From: Paludibacter sp.
GTDB lineage: Bacteria > Bacteroidota > Bacteroidia > Bacteroidales > Paludibacteraceae
Direction of reading: 5' to 3'
Assembly: GCA_030655595.1 (NCBI GenBank)
Contig: JAUSNQ010000172.1
Location: 1 to 6,944, forward strand
Length of the DNA: 6,944 nucleotides
Position numbers and translations under genes: made by a program. How positions within the stretch are numbered: the first letter of the stretch is position 1; every line of letters begins with the position of its first letter. This document shows, piece by piece, positions 1 to 6,944 of the stretch. The notes below the pieces were generated by a model. That model had not been told where the DNA came from and ran no database searches. It worked only from the letters and a program-made list of their open reading frames with translations.

Positions 1-161
1 ACACCCGGATAAATTACCATGTTGCGTAAGGCAAGAATCGGGAGACTAGCACCCGGGTCTAACTTAATATCATGAGAACGCTCATCTAAAGAGATAATCG
101 GAAAAACTTCCGACGAACCCATCATGTCATCTGAAAAGAAATTGTCAAATTGATTGCTCAT
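1..161 (-). CDS. lon: Lon ATP-dependent protease, N-terminal fragment (cut by window edge)
   Basis: Reading leftward from the ATG at 161, the frame stays open to the window edge (53 codons plus 2 bases). It starts MSNQFDNFFSDDMMG, is acidic and low in complexity, and then reaches LPILALRNMVIYPGV (residues 40-54). That stretch matches the first strand of the Lon substrate-binding (LAN) domain, usually written LPxLPLRxxVxFPG. Bacteroidota Lon proteins typically carry a comparable acidic extension of 30-40 residues before this motif. Lon is the cytosolic AAA+ serine protease that degrades misfolded and short-lived regulatory proteins; its ATPase and Ser-Lys protease domains lie outside this window. 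The first in-frame ATG was chosen because the next ones (residues 13-14) would remove the usual extension. No Shine-Dalgarno site is present; the 15 bases before the start are A/T-rich. The gene is divergent from the lipoprotein gene at 420. The identification rests on one motif plus context. Confidence 0.85.
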   Translation of the reverse strand, partial: MSNQFDNFFSDDMMGSSEVFPIISLDERSHDIKLDPGASLPILALRNMVIYPG

Positions 162-181
162 TTTAAATTGAATATATTTAC

Positions 182-194
182 TGCCATATTGGCA
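182..194. repeat. Short palindrome in the lon leader
   Basis: TGCCA-TAT-TGGCA is a perfect 5-bp inverted repeat around a 3-nt centre, about 20 nt upstream of the lon start. It lies inside the predicted 5' leader (from about 301 to 162). It could be a small operator or an RNA hairpin near the translation start. Its sequence is not the CIRCE heat-shock element. It is short enough to be chance. Confidence 0.25.
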
Positions 195-307
195 CGAATG
201 ATTACTATTTATAATTGTCTGGAAAAACGATTAGAACCAATGCATTTATTTTCAACAATTTATAAGATATTGCTTGAAAAGGATGCCCCCTAAGTCAATT
301 GATGTGC

Positions 308-337
308 CAAAGTTAGAAATAATCACCGACTTTCAAA
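308..337 (-). promoter_or_regulatory. Predicted lon promoter (Bacteroidota type)
   Basis: On the minus strand, TAACTTTG (308-315) is an exact match to the Bacteroidota -7 consensus TAnnTTTG. A TTTG -33 element (334-337) stands 18 bp upstream, close to the usual 19-21. The start site would fall near 300, giving lon a long leader of about 140 nt. No nearer match to TAnnTTTG was found between here and the lon start. Confidence 0.55.
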
Positions 338-348
338 AACATGTGGTG

Positions 349-380
349 TTTGGGAATACGTGAAATTTAGCGTAAATTTG
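349..380 (+). promoter_or_regulatory. Predicted promoter of the lipoprotein gene
   Basis: TTTG at 349-352 and TAAATTTG at 373-380 are separated by 20 bp, an exact fit to the Bacteroidota primary sigma-factor consensus (TTTG, 19-21 bp, TAnnTTTG). Transcription would begin near 385-390, leaving a leader of about 30-35 nt before the ATG at 420. Its -33 box lies only 11 bp from the divergent lon -33 box (334-337). Confidence 0.65.
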
Positions 381-419
381 TGCGGTGAACAATTAGTTAT
401 TTAGATTTAAATCAGCATC

Positions 420-1571
420 ATGAAACAATTTTTGTTTTTTATTCTTGTCCTAGGTATTTTATCCGCTTGCGATAGCGGCAACAAATTCAAAGTTGAAGGT
501 GTCATCGAAGGTGGCGGCGGAGAAATGGTTTACTTAGAGCACAACGGTCTATCGAAAAGCACCTTGCTCGATTCTACAAAAATCAACGACAAAGGGGAAT
601 TTCGTTTCAGGGCAAAAAGACCTCTCTATCCCGATTTTTACCGTTTGAAGTTGGGTTCTAAACAAATTCATTTTGCGGTTGATTCCACGGAGACCATTCA
701 TGTTACAGCGGCATTCGATAATTTTTCTACCGAATACGTCATCACCGGATCCGAATCGAACACAGATATTCAGATACTCCGAAAATCAGTCGCAGGCATC
801 CAAAGGAAAGCCAATCAGATTATCCGTGGCATGAACAGCAGCGAAAGAGACAAATTGCTGAATGAGCTATATGAGCGGATTGATGCCCACAAGGTAATTG
901 CGAGACCCATCATCCTCAAAAATCCCAGATCGGCTGCAGCTTATTTTGCTATCTTTCAAAAAGTAAACGATGCTTATATTTTTTCACCATACGTGAAAGA
1001 AGACCGGCCTTATTGTGGTGCTGTTGCGACATCTTATCACACCTATATGCCTGATTACGATCGTTCTAAAAATCTGTATAAATTAGTGATGGATGCCATA
1101 CAAGCAGATCGGCAGGCTCGTCAACAACAAAACTGGCGTGAGATAGTCGACAATGCAGCAACGGGTTATATCGACATTGAACTTCCCGACCGGAATGGAA
1201 ACAAACAGAAACTATCCAATTTGATAGGCAAAGTTATTTTGTTGGATTTTTCGGCTTACGAATCGCGCGAAAGCGTGCAGTACACATTTGCCCTGCGCGA
1301 ATTGTACAACAAGTTTGCTGCCGGAGGATTTGAAATATATCAGGTGTCGCTCGACCGCAACAAGATTTTGTGGGAAGATGCTGTGGAAAATCTGCCGTGG
1401 GTTTGTGTGCGGGATGCCAACGGACCGAACACCATACATGCTGCAACCTACAACATCACAGGTATTCCAAGTTATTTCCTGATTAACCGTGAGGGTGATA
1501 TTATCGGTCGTGATATGAATTTGCAGGCGTTGGAGAGAGAGATTCAGACACAGCTAAAAGCGAAGAGCTAA
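420..1571 (+). CDS. Lipoprotein with DUF4369-like N-terminus and cysteine-less TlpA/thioredoxin-like domain
   Basis: A 383-residue predicted lipoprotein. Residues 1-16 form a lipoprotein signal peptide ending in the lipobox LSAC, with Cys17 the lipidated residue. Residues about 23-110 (FKVEGVIEG..., LDSTKINDKGEFRF) resemble the DUF4369 beta-domain that often precedes thioredoxin-like domains in Bacteroidota. Residues about 115-245 are mostly helical. Residues about 246-380 form an AhpC/TlpA-like thioredoxin fold: VILLDF (272-277) marks the central strand and GIPSYFLI (348-355) carries the usual cis-proline, Pro350. At the active-site position, where TlpA has WCGPC, this protein reads ESRES (281-285), so both catalytic cysteines are serines (282 and 285). 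Only Cys17, Cys199 and Cys329 exist. Disulfide exchange is therefore unlikely; a binding or structural role in the cell envelope is more probable. The last residues (LKAKS) and the stop codon lie inside the 7-bp repeat array. It has its own promoter at 349-380. Confidence 0.82.
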   Translation: MKQFLFFILVLGILSACDSGNKFKVEGVIEGGGGEMVYLEHNGLSKSTLLDSTKINDKGEFRFRAKRPLYPDFYRLKLGSKQIHFAVDSTETIHVTAAFDNFSTEYVITGSESNTDIQILRKSVAGIQRKANQIIRGMNSSERDKLLNELYERIDAHKVIARPIILKNPRSAAAYFAIFQKVNDAYIFSPYVKEDRPYCGAVATSYHTYMPDYDRSKNLYKLVMDAIQADRQARQQQNWREIVDNAATGYIDIELPDRNGNKQKLSNLIGKVILLDFSAYESRESVQYTFALRELYNKFAAGGFEIYQVSLDRNKILWEDAVENLPWVCVRDANGPNTIHAATYNITGIPSYFLINREGDIIGRDMNLQALEREIQTQLKAKS

Positions 1572-1657
1572 GAGCGAAGAGCGAAGAGCTAAAAACTAAG
1601 AACTAAGAACTAAGAACTAAGAGCGAAAAAACTGAAAGATAATAGCTGAAAGATAAG
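1552..1657. repeat. Degenerate 7-bp tandem repeat array
   Basis: From 1552 to 1628 the sequence divides into 11 successive heptamers with consensus A(G/A)C(T/G)AA(G/A). In order: AGCTAAA, AGCGAAG, AGCTAAG, AGCGAAG twice, AGCTAAA, AACTAAG four times (1594-1621, perfect), and AGCGAAA. After a 1-nt shift four looser heptamers follow (1630-1657), including two copies of CTGAAAGATAA 14 bp apart. The array starts inside the 3' end of the lipoprotein gene and supplies its stop codon. From memory, similar simple intergenic arrays occur in some Bacteroidota genomes; I could not check this. Confidence 0.85.
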
Positions 1658-1701
1658 TTGAATACAATTAGCTTTTAGCTTTTAGCTCTTAGTTTTTAGC
1701 T
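1587..1701. repeat. Inverted repeat made of opposing heptamer arrays
   Basis: Positions 1587-1601 and 1687-1701 are a perfect 15-bp inverted repeat (AGCTAAAAACTAAGA and its complement). The right-hand block 1670-1701 is four to five of the same heptamers in reverse orientation. It can also pair in other registers: 1552-1561 is a perfect 10-bp complement of 1671-1680. The loop is long (85 nt), so it is not a typical intrinsic terminator. In RNA the right arm would end 9 nt before the queG ATG at 1711 and could limit access to it, or attenuate transcription between the two genes. Confidence 0.75.
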
Positions 1702-1710
1702 AAATTGAAC

Positions 1711-2634
1711 ATGTCTAAAGAATTAATCATAGAAAAGGCATTATCGGTTGGATTCGATGCTTGTGGCATAGCCCGGGCGGAAGCACTGACTGAGGATGCT
1801 GTTTTTTTGCGTGAGTGGTTGGATGCAGGTATGCATGGCGACATGGAATTTATGACCCGCAATTTCGAAAAGAGGACAGATCCGCAGGTATTGGTGCCGG
1901 GATGCAAAACGGTGGTTGTTGTGCTATTCAATTACTACCCCGAACGCAAACAAGATGCCGCCTTGCCTCAAATATCCAAATATGCATATTCGCAGGTCGA
2001 TTACCACACGGTGATCAAAGCAAAAATTCAGGAATTAGAAACACAACTTCAGGCAACATTTGGCGAAGCTTGTGTGGCCGAAGACTACCAACACAGCTTT
2101 GTCGATTCTGCGCCCGTACTCGAAAAACGCTGGGCACAAAAAGCAGGATTGGGTTGGATAGGCAGACATTCGCAACTCATCCATCCCAAATTTGGATCCT
2201 ATTTTTTCATTGGCATCCTGATGCTGAATATCGACGTAGAACCTTCCGAAGCACCTTTCCCATTTCGCTGCGGTAGTTGCCGGAAATGCATCGATGCTTG
2301 TCCGACCGGCGCACTCACAGGCGACGGACACATGGATGCCCGCAAATGCATTTCATACCTCACCATCGAAAGCAAATCAGATGTTCCCGACGAATTTAAA
2401 GACAAACTTTCGGGATGCATCGTGGGATGCGATATTTGCAACGATGTTTGTCCCTGGAACAAACGTTTTGCACAAACCCATAACCATCCCGAACTCGCTC
2501 CCACAGAAGCTATTTTTCATCTCAAAAAAGAAGACTGGGAATCCATGTCGGAGGAACAATACAAGGAGATATTCCGAAAATCGGCGGTAAGACGCGCAAA
2601 ATTGGAAAGAATTAAAAAGATTTTGCCAGACTGA
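1711..2634 (+). CDS. queG: Epoxyqueuosine reductase QueG
   Basis: A 307-residue cytosolic enzyme that reduces epoxyqueuosine to queuosine at position 34 of tRNAs with GUN anticodons, using a cobalamin cofactor and two [4Fe-4S] clusters. Residues about 55-135 correspond to DUF1730. FVDSAPVLEKRWAQKAGLGWIG includes the conserved VDSAPVLE motif, whose Asp132 is a proposed catalytic acid. The ferredoxin-like part reads CGSCRKCIDACPTGAL (Cys187, 190, 193, 197), then Cys213, then GCDICNDVCPW (Cys240, 243, 247). By the family pattern, 187/190/193/247 bind one cluster and 197/213/240/243 the other. An extra Cys236 lies in the same region. The protein ends with SAVRRAKLERIKKIL and lacks the C-terminal repeats of the longer E. 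coli form (about 380 residues), as shorter homologs do. ATG 1711 was chosen over TTG 1705. No clear promoter was seen just upstream (TAGCTTTT is a near match), so read-through from the lipoprotein gene is possible. Confidence 0.95.
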   Translation: MSKELIIEKALSVGFDACGIARAEALTEDAVFLREWLDAGMHGDMEFMTRNFEKRTDPQVLVPGCKTVVVVLFNYYPERKQDAALPQISKYAYSQVDYHTVIKAKIQELETQLQATFGEACVAEDYQHSFVDSAPVLEKRWAQKAGLGWIGRHSQLIHPKFGSYFFIGILMLNIDVEPSEAPFPFRCGSCRKCIDACPTGALTGDGHMDARKCISYLTIESKSDVPDEFKDKLSGCIVGCDICNDVCPWNKRFAQTHNHPELAPTEAIFHLKKEDWESMSEEQYKEIFRKSAVRRAKLERIKKILPD

Positions 2635-2670
2635 AATTTGTGTAAAAACTTTCACCATTTCAAAAAACAC

Positions 2671-2685
2671 ACTATCTTTTATAGT
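2671..2685. repeat. Small inverted repeat upstream of the DUF4062 gene
   Basis: ACTAT-CTTTT-ATAGT, a 5-bp stem with a 5-nt loop, lies 37 nt past the queG stop and next to the putative -33 TTG. It might be part of an operator or a weak end signal for queG, but it is short and AT-rich, so chance is a real alternative. Confidence 0.25.
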
Positions 2686-2712
2686 TGTTAACCAAAAATA
2701 ATTGTATTTTTG
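2685..2712 (+). promoter_or_regulatory. Predicted promoter of the DUF4062/AlbA_2 operon
   Basis: TATTTTTG at 2705-2712 matches the -7 consensus TAnnTTTG exactly. TTG at 2685-2687 is a plausible -33 element, though the 17-bp spacing is shorter than usual. Transcription would start near 2718-2722, leaving about 75 nt before the ATG chosen for the DUF4062 gene. Confidence 0.5.
2693..2712. promoter_or_regulatory. Palindrome over the -7 box (possible operator)
   Basis: CAAAAATA-ATTG-TATTTTTG is a perfect 8-bp inverted repeat with a 4-nt centre whose right half is the -7 element itself. A repressor bound here would block transcription of the downstream pair. The left half also gives a TAnnTTTG box on the minus strand, so a bidirectional promoter is an alternative. 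As an RNA hairpin it is too A/U-rich to be a strong terminator for queG. Confidence 0.4.
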
Positions 2713-2795
2713 TGTGATTTTTCTTGTTTTGCTCCAGTTTACCAGCAAGCATGTTCCAACAAAAAGAATGTAAGAACCCAAACCTAAATTTCATT

Positions 2796-3416
2796 ATGTT
2801 AGCAAAAAGAAATCATATACGGGTATTTGTTGCTTCCACAGTGTACAATTTCGAGTACCAACTAAAACAAATTTACGAATTATTGGATAGTTATGGATAC
2901 GATGTTCTAATGTCACACAAAGGAACTATTCTGTTAGATAGTTTACAGTCAAATTTAAGAAACTGTACCGGAGGAGTTGAAGAATGCGATGTTTTCATAG
3001 GCTTTATTAGACCAGATTACGGTTCAGGTGTTTTAGACAAAGGGGGTATGTCGATTACACATTATGAATTTGAAACTGCTTATTCTCGAAATATTCCAAG
3101 ATTCGTTTTAGCTGATTATCGTGTTGAGTTTACGAGAGCACTTTTTAAAAACTCATTCGTAATTGAAGAAATGACTTCAAAAAAGATTGATTTCAACAAT
3201 ATATCATTTGAGCGTAATGGTGTGATGGACACAAGATGTATCAGGATGTATAATGATGCTATAAAAGACAAGGAAATTCCTGCATCAAAACGAACTGGTA
3301 ATTGGGTACAGCCATATATTGGCTACGATGATATTAAGATGCACCTTGAAAGCCAATTTAAGTATCCTGAACGCATTCAAAAATTAATTGACAAATCAAA
3401 AAAAAATGAAATATGA
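2796..3416 (+). CDS. DUF4062 domain protein, first gene of a two-gene module
   Basis: A soluble 206-residue protein with no signal peptide or membrane segment. Residues 8-15 (IRVFVAST) form the first strand of a Rossmann-like fold and match the DUF4062 opening (VFVSST). CDVFIGFIRPDYGSG (64-78) is the family's most typical segment. SITHYEFETAY (86-96) carries the conserved Glu (Glu91) in an Ey..A context. DUF4062 is usually grouped with TIR and nucleoside-deoxyribosyltransferase-like folds, in which a comparable Glu is catalytic, and it appears at the N-terminus of many NACHT/STAND proteins; that is recalled family knowledge. Residues about 110-206 are lysine-rich and not recognised. ATG 2796 was chosen because the family motif begins a few residues later; ATG 2751 and TTG 2724 would add unmatched residues and run into the promoter. 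Its stop overlaps the next gene's start (ATGA). It is AT-rich: 19 of 60 bases are G/C at 3181-3240, against 29 of 60 in queG at 2041-2100. Confidence 0.85.
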   Translation: MLAKRNHIRVFVASTVYNFEYQLKQIYELLDSYGYDVLMSHKGTILLDSLQSNLRNCTGGVEECDVFIGFIRPDYGSGVLDKGGMSITHYEFETAYSRNIPRFVLADYRVEFTRALFKNSFVIEEMTSKKIDFNNISFERNGVMDTRCIRMYNDAIKDKEIPASKRTGNWVQPYIGYDDIKMHLESQFKYPERIQKLIDKSKKNEI

Positions 3417-4810
3417 GTGCAAAATCATTTATAAAAGAACTCATTAACCAACAAGAGGATAGAATTCTAGAATTTAAAATTGGTTGGAATGTAGAAGCTA
3501 TTTTGAAAACCATTTGTGCATTCTTAAATACTGAAGGTGGTTGGATTATAGTAGGTCATAACAAAAAAGATATTATTGGCTTAGCTGACATCACTGAACA
3601 AAATGTAAACGAGTTAAAACAAAATGCTTTAGATAATATTTTTCCGCAACCGCTTGTTTATGTTCAATTAGAAACAGTTGATGAAAAATCAGTTGTATTG
3701 CTCAATGTATTGAAAGGTTCAAGACAACCTTATTCTTACAAAAAAATATATTACATCCGAAAAGATAGTCAGACGGTAGAAGCTAGTCCAGACGATTTGA
3801 GTTTGATTTTAAGATCTTCTAACCAATATACATCAAGTTGGGAAAAACTTACTGTCGTTGATGCCACTTACAATGATTTAGATGAAAATGAGATATTCTA
3901 TACTATTGATGCGGCCAATAAACTTGGGAAAACTAAATCATTACCCAGTGGTTTAAAGGATTTTTTGAGTTACTTCCAATTGATTGACTATAATGCAGTA
4001 AAGAACGGTGCAATAATTCTGTATGGTAATGATCCAACAAAATTTTTCACCCAATGCCGCATACGCATTACCAATATGCCAGAAGGTGCTTCAGGTGATA
4101 ATTTCAACGATATTGAAATAATTGAGGATAATCTTTTTGTTTCTTTTAGTAAAGTGATGGACTACTTCAAGAAAAACAATCCTGTTGTAAGTGAATTTCA
4201 TCAAGATAGTCCGTTAAGAACAGATCGTGAAAAATATCCATTTGCAGCTTTGGACGAAGCCATTGTTAATGCAATGGTTCATCGAGATTACGGAGATATG
4301 TCGGGAGAAATAACTATCAATATTCATAAAGATAAAATCGAAATCATTAACTCCGGCAAAATTCCTTCTGACATAATTACTAAGAAAAATAATATTGAAT
4401 CTCACCATTCAGTTTTAAGAAATCCAACCATTGCTCATATGTTCTTCCTTAGAGGGAAAATGGAAAAATTAGGTCGTGGACTTTCACTAATTAAAAAACA
4501 ATTTGGTGATTTGGGGTTAAAGTCGCCAGAATGGACATTTCAAAGTGGGTATACAAAACTCACATTATACGGCATTCCGGAAGAAACTACAGTTAATTCA
4601 CGCATGTTTGTATTCATTAATCAAATGGAGCCCAATAGAGCTTACAGCCGAGAAGATTATATGTCATTCTTTAAAAATGAAGTAAAAGAAAGAACTGCTA
4701 GAATGGATCTACAAAAACTCACAGAAGGCGGCTGGATTAAGAAAATTGGAGACGGTCCACAAACGATGTATTCCAGAACAAGTAGAAAATTGCCGGATTT
4801 TGCCGGATAA
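3413..4810 (+). CDS. AlbA_2 (Schlafen-like) + GHKL ATPase + winged-helix protein
   Basis: A 465-residue soluble protein of the class often mislabelled RecG helicase; no helicase motifs are present. Residues about 10-125 are an AlbA_2 domain: E15, the LEFK motif (19-22), then ICAFLNTEGGWIIVG (33-47). Residues about 255-390 are a GHKL-type ATPase of the HATPase_c_4 kind: N-box EAIVNAMVHRDY (282-293) with the Mg-binding Asn286, IEIINSG (309-315) as the nucleotide-binding loop, LRNPTIA (335-341), and the glycine motif EKLGRG (351-356). Residues about 400-458 look like a winged helix (SREDYMSFFK, then ERTARMDLQKLTEGGWI). By family, such proteins bind DNA or RNA and act as ATP-gated regulators or effectors; the substrate is unknown. 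Start and previous stop overlap as ATGA, suggesting translational coupling with the DUF4062 protein. The final residues LPDFAG are encoded by two copies of a 9-bp repeat. Low G/C (21 of 60 at 3481-3540) suggests acquisition. Confidence 0.88.
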   Translation: MSAKSFIKELINQQEDRILEFKIGWNVEAILKTICAFLNTEGGWIIVGHNKKDIIGLADITEQNVNELKQNALDNIFPQPLVYVQLETVDEKSVVLLNVLKGSRQPYSYKKIYYIRKDSQTVEASPDDLSLILRSSNQYTSSWEKLTVVDATYNDLDENEIFYTIDAANKLGKTKSLPSGLKDFLSYFQLIDYNAVKNGAIILYGNDPTKFFTQCRIRITNMPEGASGDNFNDIEIIEDNLFVSFSKVMDYFKKNNPVVSEFHQDSPLRTDREKYPFAALDEAIVNAMVHRDYGDMSGEITINIHKDKIEIINSGKIPSDIITKKNNIESHHSVLRNPTIAHMFFLRGKMEKLGRGLSLIKKQFGDLGLKSPEWTFQSGYTKLTLYGIPEETTVNSRMFVFINQMEPNRAYSREDYMSFFKNEVKERTARMDLQKLTEGGWIKKIGDGPQTMYSRTSRKLPDFAG

Positions 4811-4894
4811 CACAAGCACCCAATACATAGAACACTAAAGTACAGCTACTTGACAAACATAACAGGTTTTATATTTTGCCGGATATTGCCGGAT
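4790..4894. repeat. TTGCCGGAT repeat cluster, two pairs
   Basis: TTGCCGGAT occurs at 4790-4798, 4800-4808, 4876-4884 and 4886-4894. Each pair has a 10-bp period and the pairs are 86 bp apart; flanking bases also agree (followed by AACA and AGCA). The first pair encodes the end of the AlbA_2 protein, with the stop codon beginning on the last base of the second copy. The second pair is intergenic. Either the gene end was duplicated or a mobile short repeat inserted twice. Confidence 0.85.
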
Positions 4895-4916
4895 AGCAAA
4901 TTAGTTTCATACAAAT

Positions 4917-4946
4917 AAAGAGCCGCACTAAACAGTGCGGCTCTTT
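4917..4946. terminator. Strong bidirectional intrinsic terminator
   Basis: AAAGAGCCGCACT-AAAC-AGTGCGGCTCTTT is a perfect 13-bp stem with a 4-nt loop between two convergent genes (stops at 4810 and 4966). T-rich sequence follows on both strands (CTCTTTATTC rightward, CTCTTTATTTG leftward), so it can end both the DUF4062/AlbA_2 transcript and the transcript of the secreted protein. Confidence 0.93.
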
Positions 4947-4965
4947 ATTCGTAGCTTAAATGCTA

Positions 4966-6792
4966 TTACAAAATCACTTTTGCAGTTTTGTTACCAATTT
5001 TAACCACCATCATTCCTTTAGCAGAAACAGGGATGGTATTCAAACCATCATTAGCAATACTGCTGATGACTTTTTGACCGATTACATTGTACACTTCCAC
5101 CAATTCTCCGGCAGTCGCATTGAAACGCAGAGTTCCGTTAACTGCAGTCACATCCGTTTTCATTTCAGGTCTTCTTATTGAAGTCATCAATGAGTTTGTA
5201 GGTGATGGAGTAGCTACTTCAAAATCGAAGCCTACATTTTGTGAGTAGGAATAATTACCACCTTCCATTTTCCTGCTTGCAGAAGTTGTATTCGATGTAT
5301 TCGATGACATGGCTGATCCCCATACCGGAACAGACGTTGTGCCATAAGGAACATAATCTTTGAAGGCTGCATTACCGGTAACGGATGCAATATCAGTTAA
5401 AACTATTGTAATATCCTCACTGCTTGTTAGCAGGATTACTTTACCGCCTGTCCCCGATGCAGCTATTTCAGACACCGCATCTGGATTTGGCAAATCGACA
5501 GTACCACCTGCACCCGCAGATGCCTGAATGAGGAAATGCGTTTTTGCCGGAATGCTTTTCCCATCAGGTATCACAACTTTGTTAGTTGCTGTTGATATTG
5601 TTGTTCCTGTTGCTGCTGATAAATACTGTACACTCCAACCGCTGATATCTACGGGTGATGTAGTGGTATTGTATAATTCGATGAAGTCGTTTTTCAAGAC
5701 AGCACCTGAGTTACCACCACCACCATATACTTCTGTAATAATTACATTAGGAGGGGTAACTTGAACCGGAGTGATAATGGATGTGCCGGTCAGGGCACGG
5801 GTAACGCTGACAGCACCCGGACTGCTCATAGTAAGTGTAGCCGAATGCGAACCGGCAGCAAGCGGTGTATAAGTAATTGTAACTGATGCATTAGAAACAG
5901 TACCTGCCGAAGGAGTAATAGAAGCTGGTAATGCAGAGAAATAAGCTGCATTTTCACCACTAATAGCAATTGAAATATCGCCTGTCAGGTTGGCACCGCT
6001 TACAGTTATATTTTCAGCATCAGAGTTACCTAAGGTAGCCGACATAGCCGGGATACTCACTTCAGAAACCGTGATGGTTGGCGTATTTGGAATAGGTGTT
6101 ACACCTAAAACGTCTGACCAGTTGGTAGCTACACGAATACCATCAACTATGATGCGCTGGGCAGCATTATACTGACGAAGATTAATAGCTCCAACATTTG
6201 TAAATGTAGCCGTTTCTGTGAAAAACTGATCAGGAGAACCTGGCTCAACTGATGGAACTGAACTAAGCACATACAAACTCGATACTTTGCTGGCAACATC
6301 CAGCTTTGCTACCAACAACACCGGAACTCCCGGAGTTATGGTTGTATAATTTGCCGGAGCATTAGTACCAATCCCAACACCGTTACCCGTCGCATTGACC
6401 CACACCCTTGTATAATTAAGAGTTGCATAAGGGCTTGGACCAAAGTGAAAGAAATAGCCGGCAGAATTCGTAGCTTCTGTCTGAATGATAAAAGCAGCAT
6501 ATACCGTTCCTGTTAGCGCATCAAAAGTGCGGTTTACGTCTTCACCATTGTTATCCAAATTTGCAGCACCACCGATTCCACTACTGGCATAACCGGTAAA
6601 ACTCAGACCAGGCACTACCACGTCGATTGATTGCGTACCTTCACCCGAATGGGCAGTCCATCCGTTAGCAGTTAGCAACGAACCGGCTGTATAATCGAAA
6701 TTCTCCACAAGCACTTGTGCAGAAAGCCCCGCACTTCCCACCAACAGCATGATAGCTGCGAGCATGGTTTTAAAAAAAGTAAGTTTTCTCAT
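4966..6792 (-). CDS. Secreted lamin-tail-domain protein with type IX secretion sorting domain
   Basis: A 608-residue exported protein. Residues 1-25 are a signal peptide (MRK, hydrophobic core, GLSA before Gln26). Residues about 26-230 look like a concanavalin/LamG-type beta-sandwich (VENFDYTAGSLL near the start, IIVDGIRVATNW near the end). Residues about 239-337 are an Ig-like beta-domain (ITVSGANLTGDISIAISG). Residues about 347-533 are a lamin-tail (LTD) domain: VIITEVYGGGGNSGAVLKND, FIELYN (370-375), then DISGWSVQY (382-390). Residues about 537-608 match the type IX (Por) type A sorting domain: VEVYNVIGQKV, then GMMVVKIGNKTAKVIL, which directs transport across the outer membrane. LTD modules with this motif often accompany extracellular nucleases, but no nuclease or other catalytic domain is present, so adhesion or carbohydrate/DNA binding is likelier. 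ATG at 6792 sits directly before the signal peptide; no Shine-Dalgarno site is seen. It ends at the terminator 4917-4946. Confidence 0.9.
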   Translation of the reverse strand: MRKLTFFKTMLAAIMLLVGSAGLSAQVLVENFDYTAGSLLTANGWTAHSGEGTQSIDVVVPGLSFTGYASSGIGGAANLDNNGEDVNRTFDALTGTVYAAFIIQTEATNSAGYFFHFGPSPYATLNYTRVWVNATGNGVGIGTNAPANYTTITPGVPVLLVAKLDVASKVSSLYVLSSVPSVEPGSPDQFFTETATFTNVGAINLRQYNAAQRIIVDGIRVATNWSDVLGVTPIPNTPTITVSEVSIPAMSATLGNSDAENITVSGANLTGDISIAISGENAAYFSALPASITPSAGTVSNASVTITYTPLAAGSHSATLTMSSPGAVSVTRALTGTSIITPVQVTPPNVIITEVYGGGGNSGAVLKNDFIELYNTTTSPVDISGWSVQYLSAATGTTISTATNKVVIPDGKSIPAKTHFLIQASAGAGGTVDLPNPDAVSEIAASGTGGKVILLTSSEDITIVLTDIASVTGNAAFKDYVPYGTTSVPVWGSAMSSNTSNTTSASRKMEGGNYSYSQNVGFDFEVATPSPTNSLMTSIRRPEMKTDVTAVNGTLRFNATAGELVEVYNVIGQKVISSIANDGLNTIPVSAKGMMVVKIGNKTAKVIL

Positions 6793-6944
6793 GTTTTTTA
6801 ATTTTTAAAAGTTATGATAATTAATTTTATTTTTCTCGTTTAATTGTATGTTTTACCTTCAGCATTGCCAGAATGAATACAAGGTGGTTTGGGTTAGTCA
6901 TAATGAAACCGGCATTTGGCAATTTGTATTTCATCATCCACACA
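6793..6944. other. Right-edge region with no supportable gene
   Basis: Positions 6793-6840 are A/T-rich leader sequence of the minus-strand secreted protein; no full TAnnTTTG box is visible for it (AAAAGTTA at 6807-6814 is a 7-of-8 match on the minus strand). Positions 6841-6944 are open to the edge in at least three frames: minus strand ending at 6827, plus strand from ATG 6848, and plus strand from a second ATG near 6873. None gives a recognisable protein, and the frames overlap, so at most one is real. Confidence 0.5.

Follow-up and report, generated by a model that had tools for sequence, protein, structure and literature searches.

A DUF4062 gene coupled to a Schlafen-type partner in Paludibacter: a candidate two-gene antiphage module

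Proteins with a DUF4062 domain have been described as TIR-like enzymes that hydrolyze nicotinamide adenine dinucleotide (NAD+), or NADases, and as a single-gene antiphage system named Swarozyc (PMC13174449, a bioRxiv preprint of May 2026). In the Swarozyc protein KpSwz, Glu97 is required for phage defense, NAD+ is depleted on infection, and the trigger is the phage portal; some other DUF4062 proteins sit in operons with diverse enzymes (PMC13174449). A passage of PMC12839542, with reference to a preprint from 2025 (Taboada et al.), links bacterial Schlafen proteins made of a Schlafen RNase, a minimal histidine kinase, and a winged helix-turn-helix to defense, and PMC6299218 reports Schlafen domains near and within prokaryotic Argonautes (pAgo). 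Here we describe a 6,944-nucleotide stretch of DNA from Paludibacter sp. (contig JAUSNQ010000172.1, positions 1 to 6,944; "the window") in which a DUF4062 gene is followed by a gene for a Schlafen-type protein ("the partner") that combines AlbA_2, GHKL ATPase (HATPase_c_4), and winged-helix domains. What appears to be new is the pairing of DUF4062 with a Schlafen-type protein; DUF4062 NADase defense and the Schlafen architecture of the partner were already known.

The original prediction for this DNA connected the pair with no named defense system, which stands only in part. The literature searched does not name the pair, although supplementary Figure S1G of PMC13174449, on DUF4062 operons, may show it; on the other hand, DUF4062 by itself has been named Swarozyc, and the partner has the architecture of a known Schlafen type. 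The accompanying proposal of an NAD-directed DUF4062 effector is backed directly by published work on relatives (PMC13174449). When searched against PADLOC-DB 2.0.0, the DUF4062 protein had no match up to an E value of 1 and no model matched both genes, and the partner matched three pAgo-linked models, the best with an E value of 9.8e-17 over residues 197-361. An NCBIfam scan returned nothing for the first gene and, for the second, one match far under its cut-off; the DUF4062 protein had no match among PDB sequences up to an E value of 1.

The gene pair and its recurrence across genomes

The first protein of the pair matches Pfam PF13271 with an E value of 2.4e-17 and 63.3 bits (cut-off, 24.7). 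It extends about 110 residues beyond the Pfam domain, and its chain has no winged helix, which is instead carried by the partner; the ATG at 2796 is the preferred start. The two genes share an ATGA overlap and have a GC content of 33% (26% at third codon positions), against 43-46% in three neighboring genes. Together with the hairpin in Table 1, these features confirm the initial description of overlapping, AT-rich DUF4062 and AlbA_2/GHKL/winged-helix genes followed by a strong hairpin on the 3' side. DNA similarity to the nearest relative locus (L001) spans positions 2793-4809 at 81% identity, and beyond these limits the match is restricted to short 3' repeats. Because the similarity is confined to the two genes, apart from these repeats, the DUF4062 gene and its partner move as a unit and the flanks do not.

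The pairing was surveyed in 394 genomes from the phylum of genome G001. A search with a DUF4062 alignment (A1; cut-off E 1e-15) returned 26 places in 18 genomes, corresponding to 25 genes since two places fall in one open reading frame (ORF) with a double DUF4062; at least three of the 25 genes are broken (L011, L018, and L019). In 24 of the 25, the gene that follows on the same strand is a whole or partial match to the partner alignment (A2), several of these partners being broken or ended by a contig boundary, and the sole exception (L020) is a single ORF of 426 amino acids with a different architecture. Assuming ATG starts, 21 of the 24 pairs show a 4-bp overlap, the junctions of the remaining three being 8 bp, 1 bp, and a 28-bp gap. 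The partner search (A2; E 1e-40) listed 44 places in 35 of the genomes. Among the 24 places scoring at least 225 bits, DUF4062 lies upstream in 21 (one cut by a contig end), two (L079 and L080) keep only a C-terminal DUF4062 remnant, and one begins near a contig end. Of the 20 weaker places, 12 (L047-L058) have no DUF4062 match within roughly 1.5 kb on either side, and at least one other (G308:C5, with a partner truncated at the contig boundary) does have a DUF4062 gene beside it.

A comparison of metagenome protein clusters, taken from the best 120 of 252 and the best 120 of 419 matches, points the same way: 26 of the 89 partner clusters on contigs of at least 3 kb share their exact longest-contig size with a DUF4062 cluster, against 0 to 2 shared sizes in six offset controls. 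The pair also adjoins conjugation genes on a Hymenobacter plasmid, and on an Acinetobacter baumannii plasmid (L060) the DUF4062 gene adjoins a protein labeled as Fic family, in which Pfam recognizes HATPase_c_4 and Fic-like_C, with an AlbA_2 match below the cut-off. Five stretches of viral contigs fit a search pattern, but none encodes a DUF4062 relative, and no such relative was found in phage records.

The genes surrounding the pairs were examined using 137 ORFs of at least 100 amino acids that lie no more than 6 kb from one of 19 module loci and, as controls, 137 others chosen randomly out of the 173 found in 19 regions, themselves picked by hand, in eight of the same genomes; the neighbor ORFs are not independent, as some loci (L066 and L067) share flanks, and the 25 commonest families were listed for each set. 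Neighbors matched 294 PADLOC families at E 1e-15 and controls 69. Type I methyltransferase models matched up to 12 neighbor ORFs, mad2 matched 7, and JetC models matched 5, whereas no family exceeded 3 ORFs in the controls (mad3, 3; mad2, 2), in which Type I restriction, methyltransferase, and specificity models, NsnC, and PDC-S27 matched one ORF each. With Pfam at 1e-8, the neighbors contained N6_Mtase (9), HsdM_N (5), Methylase_S (4), ResIII (4), AbiEii (3), HSDR_N (3), TIR_2 (3), RhuM (3), and JetD_C (2). All nine are absent from the list of the 25 commonest control families; because counts in that list fall from 3 to 1, none of the nine can occur more than once in the controls. Restriction, Abi, and Wadjet families are much more frequent around the pairs than in the control regions. 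At L001, for example, AbiLi/AbiLii lie upstream of the pair and AbiEi/AbiEii downstream, and at L065 a Type I restriction enzyme and methyltransferase lie upstream; the window's own 6.9 kb contains no further defense gene in a Pfam scan. Adjacency, a single partner clade (see below), and the defense neighborhoods of relatives support the view that the two genes form a true module, and the two checks named in the original prediction revealed neither rare co-occurrence nor a lack of defense genes nearby.

Variants of the arrangement were seen at a few loci. At L077, a long partner (1325-5053) located 3' of the DUF4062 gene carries NACHT and FGE-sulfatase domains according to Pfam, and L078 (1348-5073) has one of similar length with an identical core in the tree. 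A NACHT partner at L072 (3-2795) lies downstream of the double DUF4062, whose tandem units occupy one ORF of 407 amino acids (2792-4015). On the A. baumannii plasmid, a second DUF4062-like gene lies upstream (L060, 1984-3025), with a weak score of 25 bits to A1 and no Pfam match. The DUF4062 remnants that abut an intact partner encode 17 C-terminal residues at L079 (1357-1407) and 32 residues at L080 (9633-9728). Genome G001, of 3.3 Mb, has 8 DUF4062 places and at least 13 HATPase_c_4 places.

Conserved and eroded domains and the fused form

Residues were counted in a close family of 121 rows, consisting of the window protein and 120 close relatives. Glu91 of the DUF4062 protein is kept in all 121, and the catalytic-type Glu is present in 21/21 stand-alone and 14/14 fused genome copies, in an alignment that omits several broken copies. 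In the partner, the GHKL residues E282, N286, H290, R291, N313, G315, G354, and G356 are each found in 121/121 rows. AlbA_2 is different. We take E15, E20, K22, and Asp50 of this domain to be Schlafen RNase positions; E15, E20, and K22 occur jointly in just 34/121 rows and E15, E20, and Asp50 in 13/121. The window partner retains E15, E20, and K22 and carries Asn50 where most unpaired relatives carry Asp.

The same trend appears in the genome set, for which the counts are text matches near the N terminus (the L060 match looks spurious, L152 is truncated, and the unpaired L154, L157, and L170 miss the motif solely through an Asp at the first Glu). The E-x4-E-x-K motif was matched in 6/24 paired versus 28/34 unpaired proteins (Fisher p 2.7e-5, with rows that are not independent), the Asp in 13/24 versus 31/34, and both in 2/24 versus 26/34. 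Since these counts differ between sets, the erosion of AlbA_2, as read from its motifs, is partial and lineage dependent. The original prediction had assigned the sensing of foreign nucleic acid to AlbA_2. With E15, E20, and K22 together in only 34/121 rows and a fused clade that has the same HATPase and winged helix without AlbA_2, we rejected this domain as a conserved sensor and regard it as a variable and dispensable part of the system. The GHKL ATPase and winged helix, being the conserved part of the partner, are the better candidate for the switch.

The fused form came from a search for PF13271, which was found in 86 of the 394 genomes. Eighteen of the 30 loci fetched in this way (L081-L110) encode DUF4062 and the middle-HATPase part of the partner in one ORF; these ORFs match the partner profile from about position 150 on, leaving the AlbA_2 part unmatched, and four of them are shorter, two of those being weak matches (L101, 22 bits; L110, 13.5 bits). 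Pfam detected DUF4062 and HATPase_c_4, and no AlbA_2, in all three fused ORFs scanned (L096, L106, and one in L071). No name for such single-chain proteins was found in the literature searched. In a tree of 72 rows, the 24 paired partners fall together on one side of a branch with support of 100/97 and 14 fusions form a separate branch with support of 100/100, the other 34 rows being unpaired proteins; the root is arbitrary and the tool warns of long branches (e.g., L060, L065, and L059). No DUF4062 match was present in any of 42 unpaired loci, of which L152 and L178, with just 1 and 95 nucleotides upstream, are too short on that side to judge. Taken at face value, the tree suggests two or more separate couplings of DUF4062 to this switch: in one case it remained a gene of its own, and in another it took the place of AlbA_2.

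Direct repeats at the 3' end and the layout of the window

Two direct-repeat copies, TTGCCGGATTTTGCCGGATAACA and TTGCCGGATATTGCCGGATAGCA, lie at and beyond the end of the partner gene (Table 1). Each is itself a double 10-bp repeat (TTGCCGGATA twice, with one or more bases varying), and the sequence between them has no match to L001 or L002, whereas the copies stay alike. L001 (11378-11606) and L002 (3695-3923) each have four copies at and past the end of the partner gene. Because copies occur in both places at these two loci, we discarded as too strong the rule that repeats lie in the gene or downstream of it but never both. The pattern TGCCGGNNNNTGCCGGATAG had 10 matches in the 394 genomes, 9 of them at the module or its remnant: four at the G001 module, four in G002, and one in G308 beside a broken partner remnant; the tenth is a stray match in G092. 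The reversed control pattern had zero matches. In G308 (C34:9410-9709), a C-terminal partner remnant of the window's own subfamily has two stops, and the repeat is still present. Among viral contigs, the pattern matched one stretch (L150), which we regard as a chance match because, by eye, none of its eight listed ORFs is a recognizable related gene.

Other lineages have different repeats, with a period of 9-12 bp, in the gene or just 3' of it, within a scanned range from the last 300 nucleotides of the gene to 250 nucleotides past its end. At 11/12 matching bases, repeats were found at 19/23 paired, 9/13 fused, and 6/11 unpaired loci, compared with 2/61 control genes and 3/52 neighboring genes; 23 of the 24 paired rows could be scanned, L072 being cut by a contig end, and those without repeats are L060, L077, L078, and L080. 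Exact 11-mers gave 11/23, 6/13, 5/11, 0/61, and 2/52, respectively. For 18/19 paired rows (L072 and L077-L080 excluded), the Fisher p value is 9.9e-15, with rows that are not independent, and repeats were present in 10/12 paired lineages by our own grouping. We do not claim that repeats mark all HATPase_c_4 proteins, as an independent set chosen by PF13749 score had them at 9/30 loci. An RNA structure was rejected as the explanation (fold z, 0.01). According to PMC4832192, winged-helix regulators such as PhoP bind 7-bp direct repeats with 4-bp spacers, and our leading idea, by analogy, is that the 3' repeats are a candidate binding site for the partner's own winged helix.

The remaining features of the window are collected in Table 1. 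The promoter-like element was read with a Bacteroidetes-type consensus, which we take to apply here, and it was not among the predictions of a sigma-70 scan of the window. Between the TlpA-like gene and queG are AT-rich tandem repeats (1552-1629 and 1668-1701) with 14-nucleotide spacing and an inverted counterpart.

Table 1. Features of the window, in order of position
Feature	Position	Strand	Remark
TlpA-like/DUF4369 gene	420-1571		Neighboring gene
queG	about 1705-2634		Neighboring gene
Promoter-like element, Bacteroidetes type (TTG, 17 nt, TATTTTTG)	2685..2712	+	Sequence reading
DUF4062 (TIR-like) gene, 206 aa	2796..3416	+	Putative catalytic Glu91 codon at 3066-3068
Partner gene, 465 aa	3413..4810	+	SLFN_AlbA_2, HATPase_c_4 (GHKL), winged helix
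AlbA_2 (Schlafen) domain	3455..3784	+	Partner residues 15-124; E15, E20, K22 present; Asn50
N-box Asn286 codon of partner	4268-4270	+	Just 5' of HATPase_c_4 domain
HATPase_c_4 (GHKL) domain	4307..4567	+	Partner residues 299-385; Pfam
C-terminal winged helix	4583..4807	+	Partner residues 391-465; model and structural matches, MarR-type winged helices
Direct-repeat copy 1, TTGCCGGATTTTGCCGGATAACA	4790..4812	+	Overlaps stop; encodes the family's C-terminal LPD(I/F)AG
Direct-repeat copy 2, TTGCCGGATATTGCCGGATAGCA	4876..4898	+	Alike in L001 and L002
Strong terminator-like hairpin	4910..4953	.	Between convergent genes; arms 95% complementary; -32.3 kcal/mol, z -9.6
LTD/DUF6383 protein	4966-6792	minus	Neighboring gene, convergent with the pair

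Proposed mechanism, alternatives, and relation to known systems

We hypothesize, with a probability of about 0.5, that the pair is a two-gene abortive-infection module in which a DUF4062 NADase executioner is held by a Schlafen-type switch until infection. The DUF4062 protein would be the TIR-like NADase, and the translationally coupled partner, with its AlbA_2, GHKL ATPase, and winged-helix domains, would bind it and keep it inactive. The GHKL-winged-helix part would register infection, upon which the freed or assembled DUF4062 protein would hydrolyze NAD+ and the infected cell would no longer support the phage. Compared with ordinary bacterial Schlafen proteins, DUF4062 would have taken over the output from the AlbA_2 RNase, which seems eroded across much of the family. 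NADase activity and phage defense of DUF4062 proteins have been shown by others, in relatives, and would extend to the window by analogy; the physical complex, the inhibition, the trigger, and NAD+ loss caused by the window protein are what we infer.

Loss of DUF4062 with retention of an intact partner, as at L079 and L080, where only a C-terminal remnant is left, fits a restraining partner, although there are just these two informative loci. The same loci would fit a toxin-antitoxin-like system in which the partner serves chiefly as antitoxin and autorepressor, with the 3' repeats as its operator, and phage defense is incidental. The strict coupling of the two genes agrees with such a system, as does the absence, among the 25 genes, of a complete DUF4062 next to a broken partner, leaving aside cuts at contig ends and the different single-gene architecture of L020. 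However, the repeats in the window's lineage are at the 3' end and not at the promoter, and a partner with invariant GHKL motifs looks more like an active switch than a passive inhibitor, so we consider this reading rather unlikely. It is also possible to reverse the roles. In Thoeris, a small TIR-type protein stands beside a larger partner, a layout that the stand-alone TIR-like protein of about 200 amino acids and its larger multidomain neighbor resemble; DUF4062 could then be the sensor and signal maker, and an NAD-derived messenger would bind the GHKL pocket or AlbA_2 of the partner, which would act as the effector. A nuclease output is possible in the 34/121 relatives that keep E15, E20, and K22, but an effector should retain its putative nuclease residues and most of the close family has lost them (E/E/D in 13/121), the fused clade without AlbA_2 leaves DUF4062 as the only candidate effector, and neither gene matched a PADLOC Thoeris model. 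This order of events is unlikely. A single switch with two outputs, AlbA_2 cutting RNA and DUF4062 destroying NAD+, appears highly improbable: the window protein and those same relatives retain E15, E20, and K22, and 13/24 paired genome copies keep the Asp, but the window has Asn50 where 31/34 unpaired rows have Asp by text match, and both parts of the motif remain in 2/24 paired versus 26/34 unpaired rows.

Beyond the abortive-infection module itself, a broader and doubtful idea may be stated. The GHKL-winged-helix unit could be a plug-in immune switch that has a DNA address of its own, sitting on the repeats with its effector (a Schlafen RNase, or a separate or fused DUF4062) off until phage action alters that DNA, or the unit's binding to it, and fires the effector; on two occasions an NADase would have taken over from the default RNase, in one case as an operon partner and in the other by fusion. 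If the 3' repeats are a binding site, they would be an unusual self-contained alarm element that is nearly private to the module.

If the proposed mechanism is correct, a widespread bacterial Schlafen-type switch can swap its killing domain, using an RNase in some lineages and a TIR-like NADase in others, and an NADase of a family also present in human TEP1 has been gained at least twice by different routes. The pair would also be a clean two-gene system; because effector and controller would be on separate chains, inhibition and release would be directly testable.

In relation to described systems, the pair and KpSwz have in common the DUF4062 domain, a Glu that never varies where the TIR-type active site would be (E91 corresponding to KpSwz E97 by motif position only), a defense-island context, and the involvement of a winged helix. 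Swarozyc is one portal-triggered chain composed of DUF4062, a stalk, and a helix-turn-helix or winged auxiliary domain, whereas the window DUF4062 has no such auxiliary domain on its chain and is free-standing, with AlbA_2, GHKL, and winged helix on a second protein. The likeness to Thoeris ends with the two-gene layout, as the domains of the window partner are AlbA_2 and HATPase_c_4 and not a SIR2 or SLOG-type effector. The single-chain DUF4062-HATPase_c_4-winged-helix proteins couple DUF4062 to the same GHKL-winged-helix module, but they are fused, lack AlbA_2, and form a separate clade. The partner has the domain order given for bacterial Schlafen proteins (AlbA_2, minimal histidine kinase, and winged helix-turn-helix) in the passage cited above; compared with their unpaired relatives, in which E-x4-E-x-K is commoner, the paired proteins are set apart by a DUF4062 gene upstream.

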